Shown here: positions 5,353 to 40,249 of the stretch, piece by piece | Numbering within the stretch: the first letter of the stretch is position 1 | Layout of the letters: each line of letters starts with the position of its first letter | Assembly: GCF_900091415.1 (NCBI RefSeq) | Contig: NZ_FMHU01000001.1 | Location: forward strand, 2,294,001-2,358,000 | Source of the DNA: Micromonospora inyonensis | GTDB taxonomy: Bacteria > Actinomycetota > Actinomycetes > Mycobacteriales > Micromonosporaceae | Direction of reading: 5' to 3' | DNA: 64,000 nucleotides | The notes under the pieces: generated by a model | Database searches by the model: none | Told to the model about the DNA's origin: nothing | Seen by the model: only the letters and a program-made list of their open reading frames with translations | Program-made: the position numbers and the translations under genes

Positions 5353-5479
5353 CCCGACTCCCTGCGGGCGAAACCGAGGTGGCAGGCCCGGGATGGCCGC
5401 GCGGCGTTGGCGCGGCCAGGCGTGACAAGTCGCTGGACGGGGCGGAACACCATGTTTTCCTCCTAGTCGGTGATGGCGG

Positions 5480-5893: not shown

Positions 5894-5936
5894 GGCTGGT
5901 GTCTCCCTTGGGGTTGGTTCGCGGTCGGGATGCGGG

Positions 5937-5983
5937 CACACCGACGACCGCGCGGTTGGGGTGACCGCGCGGTCGTCGGTGTG
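5937..5983 (-). terminator. 20-bp-arm hairpin, likely terminator
   Basis: Perfect inverted repeat: left arm 5937-5956 (starts CACACCGACGACC), 7-base loop, right arm 5964-5983. It sits just after the 346-aa gene ending at 6007 on the minus strand. It may end that transcript or act as an attenuator before the next gene. Confidence 0.6.
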
Positions 5984-6006
5984 GCGGGTTGGGTTCAGAT
6001 GTCGGG

Positions 6007-8312: not shown

Positions 8313-8336
8313 GCTGTGTGGCTCCTTTGACTGGTG

Positions 8337-8370
8337 GAAGCCCCGCAGGCTGGTCGGCCTGCGGGGCTTC
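8337..8370 (-). terminator. 14-bp-arm hairpin terminator after the GGDEF gene
   Basis: Left arm GAAGCCCCGCAGGC (8337-8350), 6-base loop, perfect right arm (8357-8370). It lies 40 bases past the stop of the GGDEF gene on the minus strand. Confidence 0.7.
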
Positions 8371-8410
8371 TGGCGTGGTGATGGTGTGGTGCTGGCGGTG
8401 TCTGGGCGTG

Positions 8411-9088
8411 CTATCGGAGGTCGCGGTAGCGGGTGACGGGGCCCGGGGGTGCGGGGTGGCTGGGGTCGTGGGCGTGGGCGCCGCCGCGTGTGTGTTTGAC
8501 CAGGTACATGGCCTGGTCGGCTGCGTGCAGAAGGTCGCGGGGCAGCATGTCCGGTTCGGCGACGGCGTATCCGACGCTGGCGGTGACGGTCACCTGTTGG
8601 CCGGAGATGTCGTACGGGAGGTTCGAGACGCGTTGGTGGGCCGCGTCAGCGGCGGCTTTGACGTCGGCGTGGTTGCCGTGGACGACGAGGGCGAACTCGT
8701 CGCCGGACAGGTGTGCGGCCAACGCGACCGGTGTCCCGAGGGCACCCAGCCGGCGGCCGACGGCGTACAGCAGGTCGTTGCCGTGCTCGTGGCCGTAGGT
8801 GTCGTTGACGTGCTTGAACCGGTCGAGGTCGATGATGACGAGCCCGAGTGGTTCCCCGAGCAAGAAGGTGGCCTCGAGGTGGGTCCGCAGGGCCCGCCGG
8901 TTCGGCAGTTCGGTCGTGTCGCTGTGCGTGGCGAGGCGCAGCCAGTGGGACCGGTCACGCTCGCGGAAGGCCAGGGCCCGACGCTGCTGGTGAAGGGTCC
9001 GGCGCTGCCAGGCGAGCAGGGGTGCCGCGGCGGCGAGGCCGGCGAGGACTCCGCCGATCGCCGTGAGATAGGAATCCAGGTGGGACAC
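8411..9088 (-). CDS. GGDEF-domain protein (putative diguanylate cyclase), membrane-anchored
   Basis: A 225-residue protein: an N-terminal hydrophobic helix (about residues 6-24), a coiled-coil linker, then a GGDEF domain. Domain signatures are visible: DTTELPNRRAL, VIIDLDRFKHVNDTYGHEHGND, and the signature loop LSGDEFALV, which is SGDEF instead of GGDEF. GGDEF enzymes join two GTP to make cyclic di-GMP; the G-to-S change may lower or abolish activity, though some such variants work. The GTG start at 9086-9088 follows AAGGAG. A second messenger enzyme on a conjugative element could tie transfer to host development. Confidence 0.85.
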   Translation of the reverse strand: MSHLDSYLTAIGGVLAGLAAAAPLLAWQRRTLHQQRRALAFRERDRSHWLRLATHSDTTELPNRRALRTHLEATFLLGEPLGLVIIDLDRFKHVNDTYGHEHGNDLLYAVGRRLGALGTPVALAAHLSGDEFALVVHGNHADVKAAADAAHQRVSNLPYDISGQQVTVTASVGYAVAEPDMLPRDLLHAADQAMYLVKHTRGGAHAHDPSHPAPPGPVTRYRDLR

Positions 9089-9179
9089 TTGACGTCGCTC
9101 CTTGTGTGTGAAGGAGCACCGGGGTGGGCGTGGTTCCGCCAAGTTCGACGCCCGCCCCGGGCTACCAGGGTGGGTTGGG

Positions 9180-10079
9180 CTAGTCGGACTTCGGGGCGAG
9201 TTGGAAGGTCGCCGGCTTCTCGACGACCTGCACGACGTGGCTGTCGGCGACGAGCTTGTGCACGGCGTTGACGACCGCGCCCGCGCTGGCCTTGGCCGAG
9301 CCGCTGCCCTCGTTCGCCTTGTCGATGGCCTTGCACAACTGGCTGGTCTTGAACTGCTGGTCGGGATGGGCTTCGAACACGTCGAGGATCGCTCCGCGCA
9401 GCGTGCCCTTCGACCGCCGTGACCTCCCACCGGTTGATGGGTTCGCCGCCTCGGCCTGCCCGGTGGTCGCGGTGGAGGCGTCGGTGGTCGCCGGCTCCGG
9501 GCTGGGCGGGTCTTCCGACGCGTCGGCTGCCTCGGCAACCGCCGGGTCCTCGGCATCGGCGGTGGCGAGGACCGCCTCGCTCTCACCTTCGGCTTCGGAC
9601 GCGGTCGGTCCGCTCGGGCTGCCGCCCGGACGCGGCGGGTCTGCTGAGGCCGGTTGGACGCTGGTTGGCTCGTCGTCCGGTTCGGCCGCGCCAGCGGCGC
9701 CGGTCTTCTGCGGCGGTGCCGGAGGCTCGTCCGGCTGTTCCGGCTCGTCCGCACCGTCCTCGGTCCGTGCTGGCCTGCTCGGCAGCTCGCCGTCGTCCCC
9801 GCCGTCGCCGTCGGCGTTGGTCGTGGTGGCCGGCGCGTCGTCGTGGTCGCTGGTTCCCGCCTTCGCGGCCTGTCGCCAGAGCGTGCGGCCGTCGTCGGCG
9901 CGGAACGTCTCGGCCTGACGAGCCTCTTCCAACAACCGAAGTCGTTTGGTGGCCGTCGAGTACCCCACACCGGCTCGTGCGGCGATCGCGGCGGCCGTTC
10001 CCTGGCCGAGTTCCGCCAGGGCGGCGGCGACCTTGTCGAGCGCGGTGGGCGCCGTGGTCTGCTCCGGGTTGTTGTCCAT
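9180..10079 (-). CDS. Winged-helix protein with long acidic linker, 299 aa
   Basis: Three parts can be seen. Residues about 8-62 look like a winged helix-turn-helix (LDKVAAALAELGQGTAAAIA, then STATKRLRLLEE). Residues about 70-215 are a low-complexity Asp/Glu/Pro/Ala/Ser linker. Residues about 220-299 form a second wHTH-like domain (LRGAILDVFEAH, KTSQLCKAID, VVQVVEKPATFQL). The start ATG 10077-10079 follows GGGGAGGAC. It is probably a DNA-binding regulator or architectural protein of the ICE; the target is unknown. It lies between the Lsr2-like and GGDEF genes. Confidence 0.7.
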   Translation of the reverse strand: MDNNPEQTTAPTALDKVAAALAELGQGTAAAIAARAGVGYSTATKRLRLLEEARQAETFRADDGRTLWRQAAKAGTSDHDDAPATTTNADGDGGDDGELPSRPARTEDGADEPEQPDEPPAPPQKTGAAGAAEPDDEPTSVQPASADPPRPGGSPSGPTASEAEGESEAVLATADAEDPAVAEAADASEDPPSPEPATTDASTATTGQAEAANPSTGGRSRRSKGTLRGAILDVFEAHPDQQFKTSQLCKAIDKANEGSGSAKASAGAVVNAVHKLVADSHVVQVVEKPATFQLAPKSD

Positions 10080-10200
10080 CTGTCCTCCCCTGTTCTGCTG
10101 TTCGATCTGCCTGGATATGGCGTGCACTGATGCACGCTTCGACGGCGCCTCGTGATCAAGTCGGATGACCGGATCTCGGGACGCCGTCGGAGCGGTCGTC

Positions 10201-10416
10201 TCAGTGGCGGGGGCTGCGCCGTCGGGCGGCGGTCCGCTTCGGGAGCCGCCGTCCGGCCGTGATGTAGGGGGCGAGCGCCTCCCGCATCCGGGCGAGGTTG
10301 TGCGGGGCCAGGTCGATCTCGTACTCGACACCTTCGAGGGCGAATCGATAGGTGCCGACGTTGTCCCGGCTGTGGTCCATGTCGTCCGTGACCAGCACGA
10401 TTCTCTTAGTTGCCAT
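10201..10416 (-). CDS. Lsr2-like protein reduced to the N-terminal oligomerisation domain
   Basis: A 71-residue protein matching the N-terminal half of Lsr2, the actinobacterial nucleoid-associated silencer: RIVLVTDDMD, then YRFALEGVEYEIDLAPHNLARM and REALAPYITAGRR. Usual Lsr2 proteins are about 110 residues and end in an RGR-containing AT-minor-groove-binding domain; here only a short basic tail (KRTAARRRSPRH) remains. The N-terminal domain oligomerises, so this protein might mix with host Lsr2 and interfere with silencing. That role is inference. The start ATG at 10414-10416 is clear, with AAAGGAAT upstream. Confidence 0.8.
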   Translation of the reverse strand: MATKRIVLVTDDMDHSRDNVGTYRFALEGVEYEIDLAPHNLARMREALAPYITAGRRLPKRTAARRRSPRH

Positions 10417-10636
10417 GGTCTTTATTCCTTTCGTAGAGATACGGCGACGCCTCCGGGCCCGGTACGACGCCGCGCGGCGCGGCCGTACCCAAGGCGCGCT
10501 GATCGCGTGTGCTCGGCCCGGCGTCGGCCGGAGTTGGTGTGATGCGGGGTGTCGTGAGCGAGAGGGGACGCTCAGGGCGCCATCGGTCAACGCTGGGGCG
10601 CGGAGCGCCTTGGCGGTTACTTCTGCTCTGGGCCGC

Positions 10637-10978
10637 CTACTCGGCGCGGAGAATCGCGTCGGCCCGTTGGAAGAGCCGCTCGGCGAGGTTCTCCAGCGGT
10701 GTCGGGCTGGTGCTGCGGTATGGGGTGCCGGCGTGCCAGGTCGATGGTGGTTCGTTGGCGAGTTGGGTCCAGGTCATCGCGGGGGTGAAGACCTCGACGA
10801 GGGCGTAGCTCTGGTGTTGGTAGGCGTCGCGGTGGATCCGGACTCGCAGGAGATTGCCGTGGGTTCGGCGGATTTCGGTGAGGTCGTAGCCTTGCCGGTG
10901 CTCGCCGAAGGTGCGGTCGACCAGCGTCGTACCACGGTGAGTCGTCTTGACCTTGTCGTCCTGGCGGCCGCTGGTCAC
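10637..10978 (-). CDS. Hypothetical ICE protein, 113 aa
   Basis: A small protein with no recognised family. It starts at GTG 10976-10978, which overlaps the TGA stop of the upstream 375-aa gene, so the two are translationally coupled. Visible features: a basic beta-rich N-terminal half (TTHRGTTLVDRTFGEHRQGY, LRVRIHRDAYQHQSYALVEVF) and a helical C-terminus (ENLAERLFQRADAILRAE). The alternating pattern suggests a small DNA- or protein-binding domain. Confidence 0.6.
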   Translation of the reverse strand: MTSGRQDDKVKTTHRGTTLVDRTFGEHRQGYDLTEIRRTHGNLLRVRIHRDAYQHQSYALVEVFTPAMTWTQLANEPPSTWHAGTPYRSTSPTPLENLAERLFQRADAILRAE

Positions 10979-12102
10979 CGCTGCTCCTCGGGTAGGTCGA
11001 GGCCGGCGGCGTGGTACGAGGCGGCGGCGAGGTGCTGTGCGGCACGGCGGAGCGCTTCGCTCGCGTGGGCGAGCGTCTGGCGCAGCGCCGCCTTGTGGGT
11101 TTCGTCGAGGCCTGCGGTGTCGCTGTCCGTGGGGCGCTCGACGACGTGCCGCAGGGCGGTGTGGAACGTGTTCGTGAGGTAGGTCAGCGAGGTGGTCAGG
11201 TCGGCGAGGTCCTGCGGCGTCGGCAGGGCGACGGTCCTGGCCGGGCCGAGGCAGTTCGACAGGTAGGTGGTGAGGGTCCCGAGGAGCCTCGTGGCCGTCC
11301 GGGTCAGGTCTGGGCTGAAGCCGGCCTCGTCGCTGAACGCCGACCCGATCAGCTCGGCCAGGTGCGCGGGAGACAGGCTTGTCGGCTCCTGTAGTGCTTC
11401 GGGAGTCGTCGGCTCGGGATCCGTGTTCGAGGCGGTGGCGGGAAGCGCAGGGGATGCGTGCTCGTCCGCTCCGGCGCGAGCGGTCAGGGCGGCGACCTTG
11501 CGGGCGTGGGACCAGGCGCCGCCGGTTGCCTGCGCCGACTGGGCGGACCAGTCGGCGGCGTCGTAGAGCAGCGTCTGGACCTCGTCGGCCCCGTCGATGG
11601 CGTCGCCCCGGGATTCGCTGTGGTCGTCGAGTCCGGTGAACGGTGACTGGCGGGCCTGTTCGTGGATGTAGGTCCCGGTCTGTACGTGGATGCGGGCGAG
11701 CAGCCGTGTGGTGCGGTGCAGGTGCCCGACGAGGTGCGCGACGTCGGAGGGCGTGGGCAGGGCCGTCAGGGCGCTGAACGGGCCGGTGGCGGTGTGGAGC
11801 CAGCGGTGGAGGTGCTCGGCGGCGATGATGGCGCTGCCCAGACGGGCCGGATCGTGGGGGCCGTCGGTCGCGAACAGGACGTTCATCGCGTCGACCCAGG
11901 CGTTGGTCTCCGTGTCGAACGGAAGCCGGTCCTCGACGAACACCGGCTGGGAGTGGCGTCCGTCCTCGGTGGGGCAGATGGGCGTGTTGTCCGGCAGGTG
12001 CCACCACGTGGCTCCGCCGCCGCGGTAGGCGGTGGCCCAGCTCTGGAAGGGCTGGTCAACTACCGGTTCGTCGCAGAAGGGGCAGATCGGGAGTCGGATC
12101 AT
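10975..12102 (-). CDS. Hypothetical ICE protein with N-terminal zinc-ribbon-like motif, 375 aa
   Basis: The N-terminus has a CPFCDEP motif and a later CPTEDGRH, which could form a small zinc site. The remainder is almost entirely helical, with repeated leucine/alanine helices (for example LVGHLHRTTRLLARIHVQTG and LADLTTSLTYLTNTFHTALR) separated by an acidic/Thr/Pro linker at about residues 225-245. The two helical blocks resemble each other, suggesting an internal duplication. Function unknown. The start ATG lies at 12100-12102, and the stop overlaps the start of the next gene. Confidence 0.65.
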   Translation of the reverse strand: MIRLPICPFCDEPVVDQPFQSWATAYRGGGATWWHLPDNTPICPTEDGRHSQPVFVEDRLPFDTETNAWVDAMNVLFATDGPHDPARLGSAIIAAEHLHRWLHTATGPFSALTALPTPSDVAHLVGHLHRTTRLLARIHVQTGTYIHEQARQSPFTGLDDHSESRGDAIDGADEVQTLLYDAADWSAQSAQATGGAWSHARKVAALTARAGADEHASPALPATASNTDPEPTTPEALQEPTSLSPAHLAELIGSAFSDEAGFSPDLTRTATRLLGTLTTYLSNCLGPARTVALPTPQDLADLTTSLTYLTNTFHTALRHVVERPTDSDTAGLDETHKAALRQTLAHASEALRRAAQHLAAASYHAAGLDLPEEQR

Positions 12103-12537
12103 GGTGCTTCGTCCTTTCAGACAGAGGGATGACGGCGACCGGGATTGATCGCCGTGGGCTTTTTTCTGGTCGGGGGTGGGACCAGGTCAGTGACCGGTGA
12201 TTGCGATGCCGTGCTGGTCTTGGAAGAGGGAAAGGGCGGCCGTGTCGCTGGCCGGTCGCGCGAACGGCGCGCCCCGGCCCTGGGGCGGCCGGCGGGTTCA
12301 GGTGAGGTGGGGTGCCTCGGGCACAAGCTCGTTGTCGACCGGTGCGCGGGGTGGCGGCGACGGGTGCTCGGCGAGGTCCGGGGCGGCGGCGGGCGTGAAC
12401 CGGAAGACCGGGTTCATGGTGGTGGGGCGCCTCCTGCTGGGGAGGCGACGGGTGGGTTGGTGGAGCCGATCGGGCAGCAGCGCGTCCTTCGGGTACAAGG
12501 AGTGGCGGCTGCTGGCCCGATCGGTTCCGGGGAGGTG
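12103..12537. other. 435-base interval, only a doubtful small ORF
   Basis: Between the 375-aa gene and the 144-aa gene. I see one small reading frame with a good ribosome site (12298-12417, listed separately) and GC-rich short inverted repeats near 12255-12300, but no other gene. Confidence 0.4.
12298..12417 (-). CDS. Possible small protein, 39 aa
   Basis: A short frame from ATG 12415-12417 encoding MNPVFRFTPAAAPDLAEHPS and 19 more residues, Pro/Ala-rich. An AGGAGG ribosome site lies about a dozen bases upstream, and the frame runs in the operon's direction. There is no family match. It is short enough that chance is a real alternative. Confidence 0.3.
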   Translation of the reverse strand: MNPVFRFTPAAAPDLAEHPSPPPRAPVDNELVPEAPHLT

Positions 12538-12972
12538 TCAGTGCGGGGCGTGGAAGCGTCCGCGGCCGACACCGGGGATGACGGTGTCGTCGACGTAGTC
12601 GACGACGAAGGTGCTCCAACCGGCGTCGACACCCCGCTGGATGAGGTGGAGCAGATTGCGCTCCGGATCCTGTAGCGGGATGTCGCCGAGACGGCCCGGG
12701 TACAGCCGTCGGTAGCGTTTGCCGGTCAGTTGTTCGGCGAGCACCGGTGTCTCCTGCCAGCCGAGAAGGCTGTAGGCGACGGGCCGTAGGCGGTGGCGCT
12801 CACTCGCGTGAGGGCTGTTGCTGCTCAGGTAGATGTGGTGGAACTCGTCGTGCAGCAGCCGCAGCGCCGGTGGTGCCGGTGGGGCTGCCTCGAGGCTGCC
12901 CATGCGCTGAGCACGGATGCATGCGTCGGCGAGGTGCTCGACCTCGTCGAGCAGGAACATGACGCGACCCAT
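12538..12972 (-). CDS. Hypothetical ICE protein, 144 aa
   Basis: Start chosen at ATG 12970-12972 (MGRVMFLLDEVEHLADACIR); a second ATG four codons on is possible. The protein contains a histidine pair (LLHDEFHHIYLSS), a region SLLGWQETPVLAEQLTGKRYRRL resembling small phage-like proteins, and an acidic DYVDDTVIPG near the end. I do not recognise it. It lies between two unknown ICE genes in the same direction. Confidence 0.55.
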   Translation of the reverse strand: MGRVMFLLDEVEHLADACIRAQRMGSLEAAPPAPPALRLLHDEFHHIYLSSNSPHASERHRLRPVAYSLLGWQETPVLAEQLTGKRYRRLYPGRLGDIPLQDPERNLLHLIQRGVDAGWSTFVVDYVDDTVIPGVGRGRFHAPH

Positions 12973-13001
12973 GAGGGGTCTCCTTCCTGTCCCGACTCGG
13001 G

Positions 13002-13718
13002 TTAGAGCGCGACCGCGAGCAGTCGCTGGTTGGGGTCGATGGCGGCGAACAGGCGGTTGGCCTGTTCGAGGTAGGTCACCCGGTCGGCCATGGCGTCGCT
13101 GGCCGGAGCCAGCTTGGCTCCCTCGACGGTGATCACCGCGTCGCCCGCGACCGCGGACAGCGCGCTGTAGTGCTGGTAGGCCATGAAACCGGCCTGGTAC
13201 ATCTCCAGCTCGTCGAGGGCGATCTGCCCGGCGCCGTACATGGCGGCGTTGTGCATCCGGATCGCGTTGACCCGGGGCTGGTTGTTGAAGGCCGCCACCG
13301 CGGCGTCGTACGGGTACTTGTCCGGGTCCGCCAGGTGGCGGGACTCGTAGACGTGCCACGGGGTGGCGTCGCGGGTGCCGTGCACGACCCGGCTGAACAC
13401 CTGGTGGCGGATGCCCGCCCCCATGGCGGCGGCCTGGAGCATGCCGTCGAGGTCGAGCAGCCGTACCGGTCCGCCGGCGCAGTAGGCCGGGCGGCCCTTA
13501 CGCAGGCTGATCATCTGCTGGTGGTGCCACAAGCGCAGGGACGTGCTGGCCCAGAAGCGGGGCGACAGGGTGCCCTGGACGCCGAAGTTGCGGTCGAGCT
13601 GGTGCGCGGTCAGTGCCTCGCGGGGCAGCTCGTCCGGGATGCAGAGGATCATGGTGCGGATCGTGGCCGTCGGCTTGACAGCCGGGGTGCGGGTGACCGT
13701 GCGGTGGTTTTTGCCCAT
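13002..13718 (-). CDS. Hypothetical ICE protein, 238 aa
   Basis: A full-length soluble protein from ATG 13716-13718, preceded by AAGGAGGAC. It has an N-terminal basic segment, a central region (RFWASTSLRLWHHQQMISLR) and a helical C-terminus rich in alanine and tyrosine (MYQAGFMAYQHYSALSAVAG). No family is recognised. It is the first gene after the replication-relaxation gene in the operon direction, so a role around DNA processing is conceivable but unproven. Confidence 0.6.
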   Translation of the reverse strand: MGKNHRTVTRTPAVKPTATIRTMILCIPDELPREALTAHQLDRNFGVQGTLSPRFWASTSLRLWHHQQMISLRKGRPAYCAGGPVRLLDLDGMLQAAAMGAGIRHQVFSRVVHGTRDATPWHVYESRHLADPDKYPYDAAVAAFNNQPRVNAIRMHNAAMYGAGQIALDELEMYQAGFMAYQHYSALSAVAGDAVITVEGAKLAPASDAMADRVTYLEQANRLFAAIDPNQRLLAVAL

Positions 13719-29785: not shown

Positions 29786-29930
29786 TGTCCGTTCTCAGTG
29801 AAGTTGATCCGGGAGGAGTGCGCTGAGCTGGGCGGATCAGTTCGATTGAGAAAGCGGGTGGTCGGGTTTTCTCAGTTGACTTGATCCGTGTGGGCGTTTC
29901 GGGCTGGTTTTCTCAGTTGGTCTGCTCCGG
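29786..29930. repeat. Left-end transposase-binding repeats of Tn7-like transposon 2
   Basis: Copies of a roughly 21-bp repeat TTTTCTCAGTTGACNTGATCC: 29792-29810, 29867-29888 and 29907-29930 in one orientation, and an opposite copy at 29833-29854. The inner copies overlap the 3' end of tniQ, whose last codons (QLRKPDHPLSQSN) are encoded by the repeats. Confidence 0.85.
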
Positions 29931-30640
29931 GGAACGGTTTGGTCGCGGACCTTGCCGACGATGTAGTCGCGGACGGAGCCGTAGGACAGTTCGGCGCCGT
30001 GTTCGTCGACCAGGTGTTCCCAGATCGCCCACCGGGAGATGGGCGGGTCTTGGGCGAGGAGGTCGTCGATGATGTGGGCGTAGGGATCGAAGATGCGGTT
30101 GCGTCGGGGTGGTGTGCGCCTGAACGACGGCGGGTTCGGGTCGGTGGTGAGGGCGAGTAGGACGGTGTCGGCTTGGACTCTGAATTTGCGGGTGATGGAG
30201 CGTAGGGATGGGTTGGTCTTCGCTTCGTGGCGGATGGCGTCGAGGAGTTCGCGGGCGCCTTTCTGGCCGCGTTTCTTGACCAGGTTGGCGATGCTGCGCG
30301 GCCGACGCGGAGGTTCGTCGGGCTGGGGCTCGGGCGGTGTGGGCGCGTTAGGTTTGGGGTGTAGGCGGTGGGGTCGGGCCTCGGTTTGCAGGGTGGTGAA
30401 GTGGCGGGTCAGGGCGTCGACGGTGCGGTTGGTGACCACGGCCAGACGCGCGGCGCGCACTGATCCTTGGTAGCCGGGTGGGGCGCAGAGGTATTGGCGC
30501 AGGTAGCTGGGTCGTAGGTGGTTGGCGTGGGCGAGGCGGCGGACGTAGGAGCCGACGGTCTCGTCGCGTTGTGGGCGGGGTATGACGGGCAGTGGCTGGG
30601 GCCGGTCGGCGAGGATGTCGGCGTTGTCGGGGCTGGTCAT
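29837..30640 (-). CDS. tniQ: TniQ-family protein with C-terminal HTH
   Basis: A 267-residue protein. The first 50 residues match the TniQ domain start (LPVIPRPQRDETVGSYVRRL then AHANHLRPSYLR). After a Pro-rich linker come two helix-turn-helix-like stretches: PSLRSITRKFRVQADTVLLA and, at about residues 200-226, SRWAIWEHLVDEHGAELSYG followed by SVRDYIVG, the latter like the HTH of IS21-type transposases. No zinc-finger cysteine cluster is seen. It is a short TniQ in which target DNA recognition may rest on the C-terminal HTH. The start overlaps the tniB stop; the stop lies inside the transposon end repeats. Confidence 0.8.
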   Translation of the reverse strand: MTSPDNADILADRPQPLPVIPRPQRDETVGSYVRRLAHANHLRPSYLRQYLCAPPGYQGSVRAARLAVVTNRTVDALTRHFTTLQTEARPHRLHPKPNAPTPPEPQPDEPPRRPRSIANLVKKRGQKGARELLDAIRHEAKTNPSLRSITRKFRVQADTVLLALTTDPNPPSFRRTPPRRNRIFDPYAHIIDDLLAQDPPISRWAIWEHLVDEHGAELSYGSVRDYIVGKVRDQTVPRSRPTEKTSPKRPHGSSQLRKPDHPLSQSN

Positions 30641-31092
30641 CGACGGGTCCTGCGGTTGGTCTCCGCGGCGATGTCGACCTCGATGCTGTCGAGGCTGTCG
30701 CGGGTGATGGCTTCGGTGGTGTCGATGACGGCCTGGATGGCGGCGCTGCGGATCAGCCGTAGGAGGCTGCCGATCATGCCGGCGGTGCGTTGATGCAGGT
30801 AGCGGTCGAGGTCGGCCAGGGCGCCGGGACTGTGGTGGTGTAGGCGCAGGCTGGCCTCGACGGCGCTGACCAGGGCTGTCCAGTCGGGTCCGTTAGGGAA
30901 CGGGCCGGTGGGGACCATGCCGAAGCGGCCGGCGATCTGCTCGCCTCGGGTGCCGGAGAGCAGGCCGTTGCGTTCGACGTTGATGCCGGCGTAGACGAAC
31001 GTGGCGGGGATGCGTTCGGCGAAGTACTTGAGGGTGTCGGACACCTCGGCGCCGTTGCGGGTGGCCAGGCTGATGTTGTGGATCTCGTCGAC
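30637..31092 (-). pseudogene. tniB: tniB of Tn7-like transposon 2, C-terminal part
   Basis: Codes for the TniB region from Walker B onward: VDEIHNISLATRNGAEVSDT, then LKYFAERIPATFVYAGINVE, to the stop at 30637-30639. Its first six bases, GTCGAC (31087-31092), duplicate the last six of the N-terminal part at 36830-36835. Joining both parts with one GTCGAC copy gives 1038 bases, a 345-residue ATPase with LIVVDEIHN restored. It could be expressed alone from an internal ATG at 31042-31044 but would lack the ATP site. Confidence 0.88.
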
Positions 31093-31104
31093 TTTACCGA
31101 CCGC
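31093..31104 (+). repeat. Left terminal inverted repeat of the Tn554-like element
   Basis: TTTACCGACCGC, the perfect complement of 36818-36829. The adjacent GTCGAC at 31087-31092 is the likely strand-exchange core. Confidence 0.88.
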
Positions 31105-31235
31105 AGGAGCTCGGATACCGGCTCTGAACTGCGACGACTCTTAGAATACATGTCCGTGACGTTGGTTCAACACTCGCTGTCGGCGAACTTGGGTCGGGGC
31201 ATCGCGGCGGCTGCGGCGATGAGACTCTGGGCGCC

Positions 31236-31814
31236 ATGACTGACCTGAACGCCAAGGCGAACCTTCATCGGTACCTGCGGGAGGCGCGTGAGGCGCTGCT
31301 CGGGAAGCTCGACGGGCTGTCGGAGTACGACGTGCGGCGGCCGCTCGTGCCGACCGGGACGAACCTGCTCGGGCTGGTCAAGCACGTGGCCTCGGTGACC
31401 GCCGGGTATTTCGGCGAGGTGTTCGACCGGCCCTTCCCCGAGCCCGTCCCGGGTATGGACGAGGACGCCGAGCCAAACGCGGACATGTGGGCCTCCGCCG
31501 ACGAGTCCCGCGACGACGTCATCGGCCTGTGGCGCCGGGCGTGGGCGCACGCGGACGCGACAATCGAGGCGCTCCCGATCGACGCGCCCGGCTCGGTCCG
31601 GTGGTGGCGCGACACGCCGGTGACGCTGCACCTCATCCTCGTGCACGTGCTCGCCGAGCTGAACCGGCACGCCGGACACGCAGACATCGTGCGCGAGTTT
31701 GTCGACGGCCAGGTCGGCTGGCGGCGGCCCGGCGACAACGTGGTCGAGGGCGACGAGGCGTGGTGGGCCGCCTACCGCGAGCGGCTGGAGTCCACTGCGC
31801 GTGAGTTCGCCTGA
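31236..31814 (+). CDS. DinB-family (DUF664) protein, cargo of the Tn554-like element
   Basis: A 192-residue four-helix-bundle protein of the DinB/DUF664 group. Recognisable features: LVKHVASVTAGYFGEVFDRP (first His), NADMWASADESRDDVIGLWR, and VTLHLILVHVLAELNRHAGH with ADIVREFVDG, giving the three-histidine metal site of the fold. Some family members are metal-dependent transferases using bacillithiol or mycothiol and include resistance enzymes; this one's substrate is unknown. It has its own ATG at 31236 and is the only non-transposition gene of the element. Confidence 0.85.
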   Translation: MTDLNAKANLHRYLREAREALLGKLDGLSEYDVRRPLVPTGTNLLGLVKHVASVTAGYFGEVFDRPFPEPVPGMDEDAEPNADMWASADESRDDVIGLWRRAWAHADATIEALPIDAPGSVRWWRDTPVTLHLILVHVLAELNRHAGHADIVREFVDGQVGWRRPGDNVVEGDEAWWAAYRERLESTAREFA

Positions 31815-32279
31815 GCTCGGTATCGATGACGGTAAGAGCGTCGATCGTGAGGGCTCCTGCCACGACCATGGCGGCCACGGTGATCGCGGCCGAGGTCGTG
31901 CTGGTGACGGCCGGCATGTCCAGGCGTCCGTCCATCACGGCGGCGGACAACGCCGATCCGACGGCTCCACGGCTCTGTCGCTGACGTTTTGCGGCTCCGA
32001 GGCACCGCGAGCACGGTCGCGCTTCCGGCTACCGCTTCTGCGTCAATACAGCCAGCACAAGGGCGTGACCTTCGCGCAATCGCATTCCGCCAGCGGCCGC
32101 CGCAGCCTGAAGCCAGGTTCACATGCGCGGATTTGTCACAATCCTCGCGTTGGCCGGCTGCTCGGTGTTACAGCACGTAGTCAACGGCAGGTTGCGGCTC
32201 TCGCGCCAGCTTTGGTGATCTTTGTGCGTGGAGCCCGGCCGCCGGTGGGCGGCCGGGCTCCAGGACCGAGTCGTGCCGA
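31815..32279. other. 465-base intergenic region with a terminator
   Basis: Between the convergent DinB-like gene and the recombinase operon. Apart from the strong hairpin at 32231-32260 I see no gene. The recombinase tnpB frame, shifted by its frameshift, stays open to 32280. Confidence 0.45.
32231..32260. terminator. 13-bp-arm hairpin terminator
   Basis: GAGCCCGGCCGCC (32231-32243), loop GGTG, perfect right arm (32248-32260). It is placed to end the recombinase-trio transcript from the right, and possibly the DinB transcript from the left. Confidence 0.75.
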
Positions 32280-32308
32280 TCAGACCGGCTTGGTTGGCGC
32301 CGACGGTG

Positions 32309-32902
32309 TCACTGCTGAACTCTCGTTGACGGGTCGGCAAGTTGGGCTTCGAGGTCGGCGACGCGGCGGTCTTGGAAGCGCAGGTTGGAGCGGGCGGCCT
32401 TGAGGCGTTCGTCGAGGGCGCGGTTGTCGGTGGTGAGTTGGCGGACGCGCTGTTTGAGGGTGGTGTTCTCGGTGGTGATCCGCTGGACGGCTTCTTGAGT
32501 CCATTCGGCTTCCAGGTCGCGGATTTGGCCGAGCAGTTCGCTGATGTGGGTGCGTTGGGTGAGGATCTCGGTGTGGGCGGCCTTGAGGGCTTCCTCGGCG
32601 TTGAGGGCCCGCTCGCGCCAGGTCGCCTCGCGGGCGTCGTCCTGGTCGGTGAGTAGCTGGATCCGGCGTTCGCCGGCCGCAGCGATCGCTGCGGTAATGA
32701 TGGCTCTGGCCTCGGCGTTGTCGTAGAGGAAGGTGCGCGAGACGTCGGCTCGGCGGGCGACGGTGGCGACGCTGATCTGGGCTTTCTCGCGCTGGAGCCG
32801 GGCGATGGACTGGCGGATGCGATCGAGAGCGGTCTCGGTCTTGCGGCGTCGGGCGGCGTGTGCCGCCGCAGTGCGGGACGGGGCGATGGTGCGAGTTGTC
32901 AT
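32309..32902 (-). CDS. tnpC: TnpC-like DUF6262 protein of the Tn554-like element
   Basis: A 197-residue protein: an N-terminal basic helix, a helix-turn-helix (QISVATVARRADVSRTFLYD) and a long heptad-rich coiled coil (residues about 80-190; VRQLTTDNRALDERLKAARS). This is the plan of the third protein of Tn554 and related actinomycete elements, which modulates the two recombinases. The ATG (32900-32902) overlaps the expected TGA of tnpB (32899-32901) in ATGA form, showing the original operon coupling. Confidence 0.85.
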   Translation of the reverse strand: MTTRTIAPSRTAAAHAARRRKTETALDRIRQSIARLQREKAQISVATVARRADVSRTFLYDNAEARAIITAAIAAAGERRIQLLTDQDDAREATWRERALNAEEALKAAHTEILTQRTHISELLGQIRDLEAEWTQEAVQRITTENTTLKQRVRQLTTDNRALDERLKAARSNLRFQDRRVADLEAQLADPSTRVQQ

Positions 32903-35534
32903 GCGATTTCCTGTTCGGGGTCGCCGCTGTCGGCTGTGGACGTATCCCGGTGCTCTGCCTGCTGGTCGTCGGCCGCGTCGGCGAGGTCGTTGCGCGGAAG
33001 GCGGTGGACCAGACGCGGTGGAAGTAGTCCTGGGGTTTGCGGAGGTCCAGGGCGAGGGCGTCGTCGAGGAGGCCGAGGCCGGCGAGGGCTTTCTCCAGGC
33101 CGTCGATGGCGCGGGCGGTGGGTTCGAAGTAGCGGTGGAGGTAGTCGGCGGTGGCGTCGTCAGGGGCGCCTTCGGCCAGCTGCCGCCATTGCTCGCGTTT
33201 GCGGCGCCAGTAGAGCAGGTCGGCGCCGGAGAGCACGAACTTGTCGCAGTTGTGGCAGTCCAGGTTCCAGGGGCAGGCGCCGCCGTCGACGACGGGTTGG
33301 AAGGTGCAGAAGCCGCCTTCGGCCGGGGTGCTGCGGCGTGACAGGTCGATCGAGAGAGCCTGGGCCTGTTGGCGGGTGAGCGGGACGGCGTCGCCGGCCA
33401 GGAGCTCGCCGGGTTGGGCTGTGCCGGGGCCGGTGACCCAGACGTGCTGGAGCACGTTCTCCAGATCGGAGCTGGTCAGGTGGACGTAGTGCTCGGCCAT
33501 CCGCTCGCTGACCTGTCCGAGGTAGCGGCGAATGTGGGTCAGGGTGGCGCCGTGGCGTAACAGGTTGGTGGCCAACGTGTGGCGGGCTTGGTGGGGGACG
33601 TAGTGGCCGAGGTCCATCGCGTCGACCCAGGGCCGGAACCGGGTGTAGAACCACTGGTGAGTCAGCGACACCGTCCCGTCGTGGCTGCGGTAGGTCGTCG
33701 GGAACAGGGCCAGCCCGGCGCGTTGGGCACCGGTCGGCCGGTAGCCGTAGCGGGCGGTGAAACGGTCCAGGGTCTTGCGCTGGCGCTCCGCGAGGATGCC
33801 GTAGAGGCGTTCGGGTATGCGGATCGCGGCGTCGTAGTTGCCGACCTTGGTCTGGTCGTGCCAGAACATCGCCAGGCCGCCGTAACGGCCGATGCAGTCC
33901 CATCGCACCTTAAGCACCTCGCCGATGCGGCGGCCGGTGGTGACGGTCGTCTCCCAGATGTCGCGGACACCGTTGTCGTTGACGTCGTAGGTGGCGGCCA
34001 GTTCGGCCAGATTCGCCTCGTCGGCCAGTGCCCGGGCGACTTCGTCGGGAAAGGGCCGACGCGCGGTCCGGCCGGTAGTGGCGCCGGCAGTCGGGAACAC
34101 GATGATGAACTCCCGTGCCAGGCCCAGCCGTTCGGCGGCGCCGGTGTCCAGGGCCTCTCGCATCAACTTGCGGACGGCGTTGAACACCACCGACCGGGTG
34201 ACGGTGGTGACGATGCTCGCCGTCCCGTCCGGCCGCTTGACGGCCAGCGAGGGGAGCCCTTCGCGCTCGCGATGGCGCTGGTCGGCGACGAACCGCTGGG
34301 CGTGCTCCTCCCGCAGCATCGCCGGGTCGTGGCCACCACTGGGAGCCTCCAGCTCCAGGAAGGCTCCCAACTCGACGGCGGCTCGGCGCAGGTCGTCGAT
34401 CGGGCTGGCCGAGCGCGGGCAGCGCGGTGACCGCAGCAGGTCCGCCAGATGGTCCCAGGTCAGATCCCGCAGCCAGCGCTGTGGGATGCCGGTCAGGTCG
34501 ATGTGGCTCATCCGGTGCGCGAACAGCACCCCGAAGTGCTCGGTCTCCAGGAAACCGGCGTCCTTGGCCTGCTCGGGGGTGAAGTAGACCAGCCGCAGCT
34601 CGTGCAGGATCTCCTTGGCGATCGCCCCGGTAAACGCGGCGGACCCACCGGCTCCGAACTCGAAATCGACCAGCGAGTTCACCTCCAGCGCGCGGCAGGT
34701 GGTCACCAGCGACCGGATCCAACCCAGATCCCACCGGCTGGGCCGGGCCCGGCGGGTGTGGACGAAAAGCCCCCACCGGATCTCGGCTCGCACCAGAGGC
34801 CGCAGCCCGCGTAGGTTGATCTGCCCCGGCCACGGTTGCGCCGCAACGGTCGCGCACCAGTGTCGGAACGCCACCTGGTCGCGGTACTCGATCGGGACGG
34901 TCTTGCCGAGTTTCTCGTATCGCTGCCACCAGCTGGGCGGCATCGCGGCGTCGCCGGGTCTGCCGTCACGGTGATAGCGGGTGCCGTGCCACGAACACAA
35001 TCCCAGCGGGGAGTCGGCGAGATTCGGGCAGACGACCGCGCCGCAGGGCCCGTAGCCGGGGCACGCCTGTTCGCCGCTCACCCACGTGGCGAAGGAGTCG
35101 CTGTCGTCTGCCTCGCTCCTGCGCGCGGACCACCGGCCCAGATGCCGCTGACACAAACTCAGATCGTTGTGTGCCGCGGGCCGTTCAGGGCAGATCCGGC
35201 AGATGATCTCTTCTGCCCCGACGTGTCGGTCCAGCCCTTGGGCGGCGGCCACGAAGGCTGCCCGGCCCACGCCGTGCTCGCTGTCGTGGGCCCACTGCCG
35301 CTGATGCTCGGAACACAATTCCGACCCGCCCGTGCGGCTGCGTTCGCACCGCTCGACGACACAGTCCCACCGGTAGATCGCGTGGCCGCGCGGGATCACG
35401 ATGACATCGGGTCGGAAGATCGGGTCAAAGGACGGCCCGCTGATCAGCGCGGTCAGGATCTCCAGCCGGTCGCGGCCGATCCGGTCCGGGCGCTCGGCGA
35501 ACAGCGGCCGCAGGTACTCCTGCCGCCGCATCAC
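32899..35534 (-). CDS. tnpB: TnpB-like large tyrosine recombinase (3' frameshift)
   Basis: A large tyrosine recombinase: an N-terminal Cys/His-rich zinc-binding region (repeated C-x-H patterns such as CSEHQRQW and CSWHGTRYH), a helical core-binding part, and a catalytic domain with TGRRIGEVLKVRW (R), HQARHTLATNLLRHG (H-x-x-R), YLGQVSERMAEHYVHL (Tyr nucleophile), followed by a Cys-rich tail. The expected C-terminus (LADAADDQQAEH...EQEIA, stop 32899-32901) is reached only after a one-base shift near 32990-32995. As sequenced, the frame instead stays open to 32280, overlapping tnpC. The extent given here is the ancestral one. Confidence 0.85.
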
Positions 35535-36706
35535 GCCTCACCCCAGACCGCGCGCAGCGCGGCGTCGAAGGCCGGGTCGTGGACGTCGATGTGCCCGTAG
35601 ACCTCATCGACCATCGCAGCCGATGCCCAGCCGCCCGCGTCCCGGGCGATCAGCAGGTTTCCGTCCGCGGCCTCCAGAACCGCGGAGGTGAACGAGTGCC
35701 GGAAGGCGTGCGGCTTCACGATCCCCAGACCGGCGCGTTTCCCGGCCCGGTTGAGCATCCGCCGGGCCCCGACCGGCGCCCACGGCTGGCCGGCATCGGC
35801 GCCGTGCAGTTGGACCAGGAGCATGCCGTGGTCGGCGTCGCGCGGGTATTCGGTGGTGACGTACTCGAAGTAGGTGTGCACCATCGCCGGACTGACCCGC
35901 TTGATCAGCCCGCCGGTCACGATGCCGTGTTCGACCCGCCACGGGTGCTTGGTTTTCGCCTCGGCCCGATTGGGGTTTCCCGGGCGGTGACAGACGTGCA
36001 GGTGCGGGGCGCGGCACTCGCCGCAGGCCGCGTTCTCGCGCAGGTGCAGGTCGACCAGGTGCAGCCCGCAGAGTTCACCGATCCGCAGGCCGCCGTCCGC
36101 GAGCCAGGTCACCACCAGCCGGTCCCGGGCAGCCGACACGGTGGCCAGCAGCTTCTGTCTCGCGCCGTCGGGCAGCATCTTCGGATGCCGACGGTGCGGC
36201 CCCGAGGGCGCGAGCGGGTTGGTCGGCAACGGTGACTTCACATGCCCGAGAAAGGAACGGGCCCGGTCCGCTCGCGACGGCAGCCGGGACGTGTCGAGCT
36301 TCTTGCCGAGCTCGCCGTTGATCCCGAGACAGGATTGGTGCAGGTAGAAGCCCTTCAGGCAGGCCGCCGCCGTCGACAGAGCTGAGCGTCCGTAGGGGTG
36401 CTTGCCGACTCGCCACGGCTCTCCCAGGGGCATACGAACCTCGGCGCCGACGATGCCCATGTAGCGCTCGAGGTCCCGCAGCTGAACCTTGTCGAAGGCC
36501 AGGCACTCGCGCTCCAGCCATCGCAGGTGATCCACCAGGTAGTACGCGTAAGTCCTCTGCGTCCCCGAACCGTCATGCTGCCGCAGGAACCGGTCCGCCT
36601 CCTGATGGACCGTCCCCTCGGGCCACGCGATTGTCCACGACCGCCGTCCGTCCCTCCGCTCGATCTGTTGGACCCTCAAGTCCCCAATCACCACGTGCCG
36701 CGCCAC
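35531..36706 (-). CDS. tnpA: TnpA-like tyrosine recombinase of the Tn554-like element
   Basis: A 391-residue tyrosine recombinase. Catalytic residues: R in GGLRIGELCGLHLVDL, H-x-x-R in HAFRHSFTSAVLEA, and the nucleophile in GGWASAAMVDEVYGHI. An N-terminal core-binding SAM-like region (YAYYLVDHLRWLERECLAF) precedes them. GTG 36704-36706 is preferred because GGAGG lies just upstream and it keeps both recombinase-site repeats (36751-36761, 36818-36829) outside the gene; the frame itself is open to 36784. It overlaps tnpB by four bases. Confidence 0.87.
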   Translation of the reverse strand: MARHVVIGDLRVQQIERRDGRRSWTIAWPEGTVHQEADRFLRQHDGSGTQRTYAYYLVDHLRWLERECLAFDKVQLRDLERYMGIVGAEVRMPLGEPWRVGKHPYGRSALSTAAACLKGFYLHQSCLGINGELGKKLDTSRLPSRADRARSFLGHVKSPLPTNPLAPSGPHRRHPKMLPDGARQKLLATVSAARDRLVVTWLADGGLRIGELCGLHLVDLHLRENAACGECRAPHLHVCHRPGNPNRAEAKTKHPWRVEHGIVTGGLIKRVSPAMVHTYFEYVTTEYPRDADHGMLLVQLHGADAGQPWAPVGARRMLNRAGKRAGLGIVKPHAFRHSFTSAVLEAADGNLLIARDAGGWASAAMVDEVYGHIDVHDPAFDAALRAVWGEA

Positions 36707-36750
36707 TGGTCCTCCGTACCGACTCCAGAACATGACACACGCCCCGGACA

Positions 36751-36829
36751 CGGTCGGTAAAAGAGCCCGGGACGAGCTGGTCACAGTCCCAGACGGACAC
36801 CACGGGCAGGGCTACTCGCGGTCGGTAAA
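36751..36829. repeat. Right terminal repeat and direct subterminal copy of the Tn554-like element
   Basis: GCGGTCGGTAAA at 36818-36829 is the element's end. CGGTCGGTAAA recurs at 36751-36761 in the same orientation, 68 bases inside. Two copies at one end resemble core plus arm sites for a tyrosine recombinase. I saw no second copy inside the left end. Confidence 0.75.
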
Positions 36830-37417
36830 GTCGACGACGATGAGGCTGGTGCGGGCGTCGAGGCAGACGCCGCAGACGGCTTCCATGACCTCGGTGATGT
36901 TGGGTTTGCGTAGCAGCGGGATGCCGAGGAACCGGGCGAACTCGACGGCGATCATCCGTCCGGTGGCGGCGGGTGGGGCGGTGATGTAGACGACCGGGAT
37001 GTCACCGCCGTTGTGCGGGTGGCGCTGCCGGTGGATGACCTCAAGGGTCTTGGCCATCTGGATGATCGCGGTGGTCTTGCCGGTGCGGGCGGGGCCGGAG
37101 ACGATCAGCCCGCAGCGTCCGGTTTCCGCGCGCCGGTTGAGGTAGGTCAGCCGGCGGCCTTCGAGGGTCACGCGGCGGATGGTGGCGGTGGCGATCACCA
37201 CCAGCTGGGCGTGGTGGGTGAGTCGGGCCTCGTCGTAGGCCAGGCGCTGGCCGGCGGTGAGTGTGGTCAGTCGGCCGTGGTCGAGCAGGTCCGGGACGTG
37301 CGGGGTGGTATGCACGAACCGTCGCCATCCCCGCAGCGTGGTGAGCTGCAGATGTTCGGCGTCGGTGCTGTCGGGTTGGGGCGGCGGGGCGGCGGGGGCG
37401 TGGGCCGCGGTCACCAT
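36830..37417 (-). pseudogene. tniB: tniB of Tn7-like transposon 2, N-terminal part
   Basis: 196 codons from ATG 37415-37417 through Walker A GPARTGKTTAII to the first half of Walker B (TSLIVVD). Reading on into the inserted element adds only FTDRE and a stop at 36812-36814. The ATG overlaps the tniA stop by seven bases. The truncated protein keeps the ATP-binding loop but lacks Walker B acid E, sensors and the C-terminal domain, so it should be inactive. Confidence 0.88.
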
Positions 37418-39489
37418 CGTTTCGTTGCCTCCAGGTATGGGTCGAACACGCCGAGAGGGATGACCTCGGCCAGTGCTTGCCCGGTGTCGTCGCCGTCGGG
37501 TGCGCCGGTGGGGGTGGTGCCGGTGTCGGGCTCCGGCGTGGCCGCCGGTTCGGGACGTGGCCAGGCCGGTGGGGTGGTGGAGCGGGTGCGGGCGCGGACC
37601 CGCCGGTCCCGCTTGGACGTCGAAGGCGTCGGGTCGGGGCCGCGGTTGGCGCGTCGCAGCAGTGCCTGCACCGCCTCGGCGATCTCGGCTTGCGTGGCGT
37701 CGGGCAGCTTCGCGCGGACGTGGTCCCAGGCCAGTTCCCCGAACGGCAGCCCGTCGCGGTGCAGGTGCGTCCAGAACACGGTGATCCAGCCGCCGGTATC
37801 CGGGTCACGTATCCAGATCCGGGACACGTCGTAGGGGTCGTGGTGGACCTGCCACAGGTTCTTGTGGGCGGTGTTTCCCGACGGCTGCCGGCGCAGCGGG
37901 TTGAGCTGTTCGGCGTCGTAGGTGCGGTGCCGGTGCTTGATGCCGTAGGCGTTGATCGCCTTCCAGCAGGTCGGCAGCAGCGCGATGTAGTCGTCGCCGG
38001 ACAACGCGACCGGCAGGTAGCCGGTCGACTCGACCAGCGTCGCGTACTTCTCGTTCGGGGTGAACGTGCGTCCCGGCGTGGCCGGGTCGCGCAGGCCGTC
38101 GTGGGGGCGGTTCTGCCAGGCCGCGACGATCCACTCGTCGAGCAGGTTCTGCAGTTCCAGCATCGACCACAACGCCTTGGCCTCCAGGCCGCGGCCCCGC
38201 CGTTCCGTGTTGGAACCGGCGTAGCCGGACACGAACTGGGCGAACAGCGTCCCGACCGCCGACATCAGCTTCTCGACGTGCGGCTTCTCCGCCGGCGAGC
38301 CGGGGTGGGTGGGCTGAAAGTTGATCCCCAGGAACGCGCAGGACGAGCGGAAGTTGCGCGACAGGAACACGCTGCCCTGGTCGACCACGATCGTCTCCGG
38401 AACGATGACCGGACGGGCCGCGGCGTGTTCGAGCCGCTCGTCGATGTCGGCCAGCCGCCGGTGCGGCAACACCGACCTCGACATCGCCAAAGCCTGCGTC
38501 CAGCCGGGCCGCATCGGCTCCGGTGTCAGGGCCCGGGCCAGCAGGATGCTGGCGTCGACCGATTTCGTGGTGGGGCGCAGCACCGCCGCGGTCACCGTTC
38601 TGGTGGCCACGTCGATCACCCCGGTCAGCTCCACGCGCCCCGGTGTGCCGTCGTCAAGCAGAACCAGCACGTCCAGCGGTGTGGAGTCCATCTCCATCAG
38701 CTCACCCGGGGCGAACACCCGGGGCCGGGAGAACGGCGCCGACGGTGCCGACGCCACCGAGCGGCGACTGCGGGCCGAACCCGTCGTGTGCAGCCCGACG
38801 GCCAGCTTGTCCAACAACCGATACAAGGTCGCCTGCGACGGCATCACCACCAGGCCGTGGTGGCACTCATCAAGGATCTGCCGCGCCCGCCACAACAGAT
38901 AACCACCCGTGCGGGTCGAGTCGTCGGTGGCCTCGGCGACCGCCGCCCGCACCGCCTCCACCACCCGCGCGTCGACCCGGCCGAACCGCGACGGCTGCCG
39001 CAACAGCCGCTGATCGACCAGCGCCGCGACCCCGCCGGCCTCGTAACGCTGCCGCTGACGCTTCAGCGTCGGCACCGTTACCGCGTGTCCGGCCGCCCGC
39101 AGTTCGGCGGCCTTGACCTGCTCCCGACTGGTCACCGTCGTCACCGCCGGATCGAAGCCAGGCCGGGCCACCGCCCCGGCCGGCGCGTCCGGCGCCAGGC
39201 CGTGGATGACCTCCAACACCTGGCGCTCCCACCACAACGCCCGCTCAGTCACCTCGCCGGGAAGACGGTCCAGCACGGCCGCCGACCCCACCCCAGCGGC
39301 GACGCTGCGCTGTCCGAGCACCGCGAAGTCCGCCTCCGACAGCAGATGAGCCAACCGGACTCCCTCGGTCTGGCCGGCCTCGTCGGTCAACAGCACCAGC
39401 GTCCCGGACCAACCCACCACGGTCCGGACGACCCCGGCGGCCCGCACCCGATCCCCCGGACAAAGCCGCGGCAACCGCCGACCGCTCAC
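37411..39489 (-). CDS. tniA: TniA/TnsB-like DDE transposase of Tn7-like transposon 2
   Basis: A 692-residue transposase. N-terminal HTH modules (VKAAELRAAGHAVTVPTLKR) lead to the integrase core with acids in LMEMDSTPLDVLVL, IVVDQGSVFLSRNF and EKPHVEKLMSAVG, then the Mu-type beta-barrel and a Pro/Thr-rich basic tail. The start is GTG 39487-39489, overlapping the tnsA stop. The frame is open further upstream, but that part is a shadow of tnsA. This protein and the TniA of transposon 1 share the plan but are clearly different in sequence, so the two transposons arrived independently. Confidence 0.88.
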   Translation of the reverse strand: MSGRRLPRLCPGDRVRAAGVVRTVVGWSGTLVLLTDEAGQTEGVRLAHLLSEADFAVLGQRSVAAGVGSAAVLDRLPGEVTERALWWERQVLEVIHGLAPDAPAGAVARPGFDPAVTTVTSREQVKAAELRAAGHAVTVPTLKRQRQRYEAGGVAALVDQRLLRQPSRFGRVDARVVEAVRAAVAEATDDSTRTGGYLLWRARQILDECHHGLVVMPSQATLYRLLDKLAVGLHTTGSARSRRSVASAPSAPFSRPRVFAPGELMEMDSTPLDVLVLLDDGTPGRVELTGVIDVATRTVTAAVLRPTTKSVDASILLARALTPEPMRPGWTQALAMSRSVLPHRRLADIDERLEHAAARPVIVPETIVVDQGSVFLSRNFRSSCAFLGINFQPTHPGSPAEKPHVEKLMSAVGTLFAQFVSGYAGSNTERRGRGLEAKALWSMLELQNLLDEWIVAAWQNRPHDGLRDPATPGRTFTPNEKYATLVESTGYLPVALSGDDYIALLPTCWKAINAYGIKHRHRTYDAEQLNPLRRQPSGNTAHKNLWQVHHDPYDVSRIWIRDPDTGGWITVFWTHLHRDGLPFGELAWDHVRAKLPDATQAEIAEAVQALLRRANRGPDPTPSTSKRDRRVRARTRSTTPPAWPRPEPAATPEPDTGTTPTGAPDGDDTGQALAEVIPLGVFDPYLEATKRW

Positions 39490-40249
39490 CACGACGACCC
39501 CGACGCCCGCACCACCGTCGCCGGGCCCAGCAGCGCACCGACCAGATCCCCCGTCAGCACGTGCCGCCAGAGCAGGTGGAACAGCACCGGCAGAACCAAC
39601 AGCCGATCCCCGGCCCGCCCAGCGCCCTCGAACAACGGCGCCGGCTGGGCGAACACCTCCAACAACCGGGCTGTGACGTCCTCGCGCCGGCCGCAACGCG
39701 GATGCCGATACCGCGACAGCCAGCGCACGTTCGCCGCGAACACCGACTCCATGACACCGATCCGACGAAACCGCCAGCCGACCGTCCGACACGCTGCGGC
39801 CGTCACCGCGAACGCCTCCGCATCGCGAACCTTGACCCGCTCATCAGGGCGCACGTCGATCACCAACCCACTGCCGTCCTCGAGGCGGACGAAGTAGTCC
39901 GGCAAATGCCGGCGCACCCCACCCGCCTCCGGCCAGGACAGCCAAACGGCTGCGACGCGATCCCGACCACCGCCGGATCGAAGTCCAGCAGCATCACATG
40001 ATCACGTTCCAGCCACGACTCGTAGCCCACATGCCGGCCCACTGTGGATGACCACCACCGGCCCGGGAAGTTCCGCTGACCCTTGAACATCGGAAACGCC
40101 CGCGCCGGCGCGACGTCCTCGAACCGCACCCCGCCGCACCGCGCCAACGGCTCACAGCGCACCTCACCGTCCACGCCCACGAACTCGATCATGAACTCGT
40201 CCGCGTCGACGACACCGACAGGGGCGACGGAATCCGAAGCAGTGCTCAC
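39486..40249 (-). pseudogene. tnsA: TnsA-like endonuclease subunit of Tn7-like transposon 2, frameshifted
   Basis: The N-terminal half from GTG 40247-40249 runs to YESWLERDHVMLLDFDPAVV then GIASQPF; the expected continuation (WLSWPEAGGVRRHLPDYFVR, IDVRPDERVK) lies in another frame of the same strand. One missing base in the T-run (AAA on the plus strand at 39944-39946) explains it; total length 764 needs one base to be divisible by three. The catalytic acids E and D are conserved, but the lysine position reads R (IDVRPD against VDVKPA in transposon 1). Inactive if the indel is real. Confidence 0.82.

Follow-up and report, generated by a model that had tools for sequence, protein, structure and literature searches.

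A Tn554-like element in the Walker B codons of a Tn7-like tniB gene, and a family of relatives whose target genes change with TnpB divergence

In this study we analysed a 64,000-nucleotide stretch of the Micromonospora inyonensis genome (hereafter the window), in which a Tn554-type element interrupts tniB, the ATPase gene of a Tn7-like transposon. As judged from the sequences of related elements, their target classes change together with the divergence of TnpB, the longer of their two tyrosine recombinases, and this constitutes the stronger and new finding of our work. The explanation that we favour, with a probability of roughly two in three, is that the element belongs to a Tn554/Tsy-like family with an exchangeable TnpB target selector, some lineages of which sit in Tn7-like transposase genes. 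A more detailed version is offered tentatively, as something slightly short of an even bet: the family would be modular, with a fast-evolving TnpB exchanged among similar backbones of TnpA and element ends and thereby re-aimed at conserved catalytic-motif codons, some lineages would be specialists on Tn7-like transposase genes, and the second core would record the previous site.

The element lies on the minus strand at 31093..36829 (5737 bp, tnpA-proximal end at 36829), as delimited by its terminal inverted repeats and by the frame of the split gene. The repeats are found at 31093..31104 (tnpA-distal end) and 36818..36829 (tnpA-proximal end), and outside them stands the 6-bp core GTCGAC, at 31087..31092 and 36830..36835 respectively. 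The initial annotation had described perfect 12-bp inverted repeats around 5737 bases with GTCGAC on both sides; all of this is present, and the match is longer than claimed, positions 31085-31104 and 36818-36837 being 100% complementary along 20 nt; the extra length comes from the palindromic GTCGAC cores plus two additional matching bases. The 5' part of tniB, up to LIVVD (36830..37417, minus strand), matched PF13401 (AAA_22) to profile position 91 and PF05621 (TniB) to position 126, both above cut-offs. The 3' part, from VDEIHN (30637..31092, minus strand), gave no match in a Pfam scan when taken alone and aligns with uninterrupted relatives. Joined with one GTCGAC, the flanks form an open frame of 1038 bp containing LIVVDEIHN, as had been proposed. 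In agreement, a tniB gene from the same genus (L092) is uninterrupted, with 92.6% identity over aligned columns (small gaps), and is identical to the joined gene across 42 bp spanning the insertion site, so the split site is not due to chance. At the protein level L092 and L093 share 91% and 90% identity with the window gene, and both span the site without a stop (L093 being compared as protein).

Besides that of the window, 47 TniB places were found in a survey of 354 genomes of the family, and 39 of them were inspected (L092-L130). The insertion site was spanned by one open match in 37 of these 39 and by two overlapping matches in L102, while the match of L126 stops early; none of the 39 carries an element at the tniB site. 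Among 33 alignable intact tniB genes the core reads GTCGAC in 22, GTCGAT in 5, GTTGAC in 3, GTGGAC in 2 and GTTGAT in 1. In one contig (C3 of genome G619) four TniB matches share one score and one identity value (62%), which suggests an active Tn7-like transposon in that genome.

Related elements were collected by a TnpA scan, which gave 92 stretches encoding a relative; the best 80 were kept and correspond to 78 loci. The target class was taken from the gene adjoining the left, tnpA-side end; for loci lacking that end, the gene at the right end was used instead. A class could be assigned for 56 of the 78 loci. Both motor genes of Tn7-like transposons, tniA and tniB, are recurrent sites and together account for 17 of the 56. 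Eight loci are in the tniB Walker B codons (L006, L007, L015, L018, L028, L035, L045 and L073; L006 and L007 are near-copies within one genome) and nine in tniA (L021-L024, L027, L030, L032, L034 and L077). A NucS/DUF5655-type nuclease gene is interrupted at VVVE/YKRG (the slash marks the insertion) in 12 loci, the Walker B codons of comM in eight, a HAD gene at LDVD/G in six and other AAA Walker B codons in three. The remaining ten comprise HD (KIAD/NAHN), ATP-grasp (WFLE/CNPN), ResIII helicase (AIMD/), DNA polymerase III alpha (LLFER/FL), 3HCDH and DUF222 genes (one each), and TrpA and kinase-like genes (two each). Some labels are to be read with care: L026 (AAA) and five of the six HAD loci were named by motif, L047 and L048 were called kinase-like by eye, and L014 (HAD_SAK_2), L019 (NucS_C), L041 (MvdD) and L033 (DUF222) have Pfam labels below cut-off.

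The insertion points coincide closely between genes of one type. They fall at AAA_22 position 91 in the window, L018, L029, L035 and L132 (the matches of L018, L035 and L132 scoring below cut-off) and at position 90, in reverse orientation, in L036; in L057, L083 and L134 they fall at Mg_chelatase position 113. Both insertion orientations occur in tniA and in AAA genes. We take the motifs at the insertion sites to be the DxD, ExK, HD, ATP-grasp E, JAMM and Walker B positions of the respective proteins. To our knowledge the tniA, 3HCDH and DUF222 sites are not catalytic motifs, so the rule of insertion into catalytic codons has exceptions.

Ten further loci came from other searches (L080-L086 and L132-L134); the left end is readable in seven of them and no end was found in three. 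They include insertions in the Walker B codons of tniB (L132), in comM (L083 and L134), in an ATP-grasp-like gene (L081), at VLFID/ in a gene with no Pfam match (L086), in a P-loop gene with weak matches only (L133), and directly after NGHGGN in a creatininase gene (L080). None copies a locus of the TnpA scan, the nearest being L080 (92% identical to L031, which has a like site) and L134 (83% to L054), so that these two do not represent independent kinds.

The idea that the TniB Walker B codons are the natural attachment site of the element thus holds in that this site recurs (8 of the 78 loci, plus L132), but it is one site among several. One may still ask if the family is a dedicated hyperparasite of Tn7-like transposons, with tniB and tniA as its proper home and other genes as stray sites. 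The 17 loci in these genes speak for it, as does a single Tn7-like transposon (L015) that holds two elements, at 1078-6674 in tniA and at 7956-13177 in tniB, whose TnpA and TnpB proteins belong to different clades; moreover, insertions in tni genes seem far above random expectation, because only 39 of the 354 family genomes hold such a TniB (E <= 1e-30). However, the nuclease, comM and HAD sites are regular rather than stray ones, because they recur and the nuclease-site and HAD-site TnpB proteins each form a 100* group (the former including L003). As the search started from an element inserted in tniB, the sample may be tilted; 39 of the 56 assigned loci lie outside tni genes, by which targeting of TniB only is rejected. 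We therefore regard a dedicated hyperparasite as quite improbable. As a separate observation, an additional element end was seen in a tniB fragment beside a tniA element (L022:4354), on a contig whose order looks scrambled.

The case for TnpB as the target selector comes from its divergence. We compared pairs of elements with TnpA identity of 80-98%. In pairs sharing a target (n=80) the mean identities were 89.8% for TnpA, 82.1% for TnpB and 75.2% for TnpB residues 1-230, whereas in pairs with different targets (n=381) they were 87.0%, 58.4% and 46.6%. L020, which is not among the 56 classed loci, counted here as a class of its own; on leaving out L003, L020 and the near-copies L005 and L007, TnpB identity was 81.4% for the same target (70 pairs) against 57.2% for different targets (279 pairs). 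The N-terminal region of TnpB contains three CCCH fingers, at 58-77, 112-131 and 164-183, which are invariant across 38 aligned TnpB proteins (the window's and 37 of 55 open copies). A model and a fold match assign CB and CAT domains to the region that follows, approximately 350-690.

An alternative explanation is that TnpA, or a linked pair of TnpA and TnpB, sets the target, and that TnpB merely evolves faster. On both trees the target classes cluster strongly. The TnpB tree, with 49 labelled rows, needs 14 label changes (least possible 13; shuffled mean 34.9, minimum 29), and the TnpA tree, with 54, needs 15 (least possible 13; shuffles averaging 38.0, with a minimum of 33), L037 (truncated tnpA, no left end), L025 and second copies being left out. 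TnpA thus sorts the targets nearly as well, and by label changes the two proteins can scarcely be told apart; because the counts are so close, the selector case relies on the contrast in divergence and on cases of conflict, L006 among them. In L006 and L019, TnpA and TnpB point to different classes, and it is the class indicated by TnpB that matches the target found. L006, in a tniB site, has a TnpA 93-94% identical to that of HAD-site and HD-site elements and a TnpB only 62-65% identical to theirs, while its TnpA and TnpB are 89% and 90% identical to those of the window. The TnpA of L019, in a nuclease site, is 87% identical to both the window and L002, and its TnpB shares 58% with the window and 82% with L002. 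In the doubly occupied transposon L015, both trees place the tniA copy among tniA-site elements, unlike the tniB copy. Targeting by TnpA is weakened by these cases, and we consider this alternative unlikely.

The short cores at the junctions give a second view of targeting. In 37 elements with both ends mapped, the left and right cores are identical in 18, as in the window, and different in 19. GTCGAC as a fixed attachment core is therefore rejected, and since homologues occupy other genes with other cores, the GTCGAC site in TniB is one site of a multi-site family. The outcome that the initial annotation had named as refuting its reading was thus seen in part. The two cores of an element still resemble each other: they differ on average at 1.16 of 6 bases, whereas shuffled pairs average 2.81 and none of 10,000 shuffles went below 2.11. 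Five of eight tniA elements have 4 or 5 mismatches between their cores. In L024 (7950-13421) the left core GCGGTC is the reverse complement of the right core GACCGC, which would follow if the element had previously sat in a tniA copy of opposite orientation. Carry-over of 6 bp was reported for SE elements and for Tn554-related elements (PMC10214605, in the passages compared), and the core pattern fits it, the left core probably belonging to the target. It might also be argued that TnpA and TnpB simply read a loose word, about NTSGAN before TTTACC, without a dedicated selector, the codons for a hydrophobic residue followed by Asp or Glu spelling that word in GC-rich genomes. Of the 46 left cores outside tniA, 38 indeed have the form NT[CG]GAN. 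Yet the word is common while the insertions occur in few genes and track TnpB divergence, and it is not matched by the sites in tniA, dnaE, trpA, HD, 3HCDH, kinase-like and creatininase-type genes, so we give sequence preference alone a low probability.

Under the favoured reading of an exchangeable selector, TnpA and TnpB, together with TnpC (DUF6262), would make a circular copy of the element and insert it by swapping the 6-bp core. The left core would be the target's own and the right one would have been brought from the previous site. TnpB would select the target, its zinc-finger N-terminus reading the DNA beside the core, and as this DNA often lies within catalytic-motif codons the site would be conserved across species. 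In the window the TniB Walker B codons would have been chosen and the ATPase is cut after VVD, hence that Tn7-like copy should be immobile. The suggestion of the initial annotation that such a parasite would spread with other transposons and also silence them is in this respect contradictory, because a broken tniB should immobilise its own carrier unless TniB is supplied in trans.

Several observations weigh against the selector reading. As many as 22 of the 78 loci are without an assigned target class. Neither the TnpA nor the TnpB tree unites the tniB-site elements in a single clade (5 changes each), the comM-site TnpB proteins are scattered over several branches, with identities down to 54% in same-target pairs, and L003, in a 3HCDH gene, has a nuclease-type TnpB (up to 93% identity). 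The tniB insertion site is well conserved, yet its 24-nt window ranks 72 of 1012 over the 33 intact genes; the site as the most conserved stretch of tniB was accordingly rejected. Some right ends were selected partly by core similarity. Finally, the last ~30 residues of TnpB that are conserved in relatives sit in another frame in the window, at about 32900-33009 (minus strand), so this copy may be inactive.

Regarding the gene content of the element, tnpA (35531..36784, minus strand; PF00589) is an open reading frame of 417 aa, and the alignment of many relatives begins only at about residue 22-31. It is followed by tnpB (33009..35534, minus strand), with 842 aa in the conserved frame, identified by PF00589, invariant columns, a model with fold match and a frame comparison, and by tnpC (32309..32902, minus strand; PF19776, DUF6262, 37.3 bits, cut-off 29). 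A cargo gene for a mycothiol-S-transferase-like protein of the DinB superfamily lies on the plus strand at 31236..31814 (PF04978, E 7e-46). We also found an internal second copy of the end repeat, GGTCGGTAAA on the plus strand, at 36752..36761, 68 bp inward of the tnpA-proximal end; of the 63 left ends compared, 51 have such a copy at +67 to +69, and of the 41 right ends none does. The element is a single copy in its genome (E <= 0.001). The RpoB protein of the host shares 96% identity with that of Plantactinospora and 75-82% with nine others, which places the host in the Micromonosporaceae. Its host transposon contains a tniA-like DDE transposase gene (37411..39792, minus strand), named from its position and from rve, HTH_32 and IS481 matches that are all below cut-offs, a tniQ-like gene (29837..30640, minus strand; PF06527, 31.6 bits, cut-off 27) and a tnsA-like gene (39486..40249, minus strand; NF033179, 107.9 bits, just below the cut-off of 110). 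The TnsA-, TniA/TnsB-, TniB/TnsC- and TniQ-like genes that characterise Tn7-like transposons are thus all present together, TniB and TniQ above cut-off. The tnsA-like gene is split over two frames that meet near 39900, by decay, recoding or assembly error. The frameshift-like changes in this gene and in the tnpB tail may reflect decay or assembly error.

If the favoured reading is right, TnpB explains how elements with site-specific recombinases change target while the machinery stays, and the family would constitute a natural set of re-aimed integrases from which the rule relating fingers to DNA could be learned. The Walker B case of comM would become part of a wider pattern of insertion into catalytic codons, and Tn7-like transposons would be an instance of mobile DNA whose ATPase and transposase genes another class of mobile DNA interrupts again and again.

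By gene order, DUF6262 and homology, the window element is assigned on sequence grounds to the Tn554 family, as had been proposed. An Enterococcus plasmid copy (L131) consists of a radC fragment followed by tnpA, tnpB and a DUF6262 gene (60.4 bits), in the same direction and order as in the window, and both recombinases are of the tyrosine type. The window TnpA aligns with Staphylococcus and Enterococcus plasmid copies over 88% of its length (22% identity, E 4e-13). A TnpB profile matched the L131 TnpB with an hhalign probability of 93.8% (E 1.7e-7) over the catalytic and C-terminal parts only, not the finger region, and a single-sequence TnpB search of plasmids returned 73 records, all from actinobacterial genera and none from Staphylococcus or Enterococcus. 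The L131 TnpB differs in having 637 aa, against 843-878 residues in 54 of the 55 open copies here and 750 in L002. In that Enterococcus hirae plasmid (L131:3061-3393) the element truncates RadC, whose remaining part ends after HNHPSGD, which we take to be a catalytic-type motif; targeting of motif codons may therefore predate the present family. As described for the Tn554 family in the passages compared, the target is within a gene and a 6-bp core is carried over (PMC10214605); there is no ordinary target duplication, and cores may differ between junctions, as they do in 19 of the 37 elements compared here, though not in the window itself.

Actinobacterial Tn554-related elements with a long and an ordinary tyrosine recombinase and a TnpC relative were described by Van Houdt et al. 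(2012; PMC3414803), and the passages of that paper compared here mention neither insertion motifs nor target classes nor a role as selector. Judged by title and the start of the abstract, we found no paper on Tn554-type elements in tniB or tniA, or on target diversification of TnpB/TnsF. A parallel to TnpB is TnsF of Tsy (ZooTsy)/Tn6022, which has N-terminal zinc fingers and tyrosine-recombinase domains and was shown to select the comM Walker B codons (Faure et al., 2023; PMC10293859). According to the parts of that paper compared, the Tsy gene set is, as here, a tyrosine recombinase, a small helix-turn-helix protein and a long zinc-finger recombinase, and both families insert at Walker B codons, of comM there and of tniB and comM here. 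Tsy also has ends of unequal length, 135 bp for the long end 1 and 20 bp for the short end 2, which recalls our one-ended internal repeat; it differs in that both systems examined in that paper had comM as their target and no inverted repeats were detected. The TnpB fingers lie within about the first 200 aa, as described for the Tsy/TnsF type; this likeness is one of described layout and insertion site, and its limited scope counts among the points against our reading. SE, GInt and RIT elements likewise have several tyrosine recombinases each, SEs with a 6-bp fingerprint or footprint, and differ in gene set from the window element, RITs having three recombinases and SEs IntA, Tfp, IntB and Srap. 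Insertion into the genes of other transposable elements was also reported for them, in the passages compared, with a RIT element found in a transposase gene (PMC3414803) and SE-6945 in insJ of IS3 (PMC10214605).

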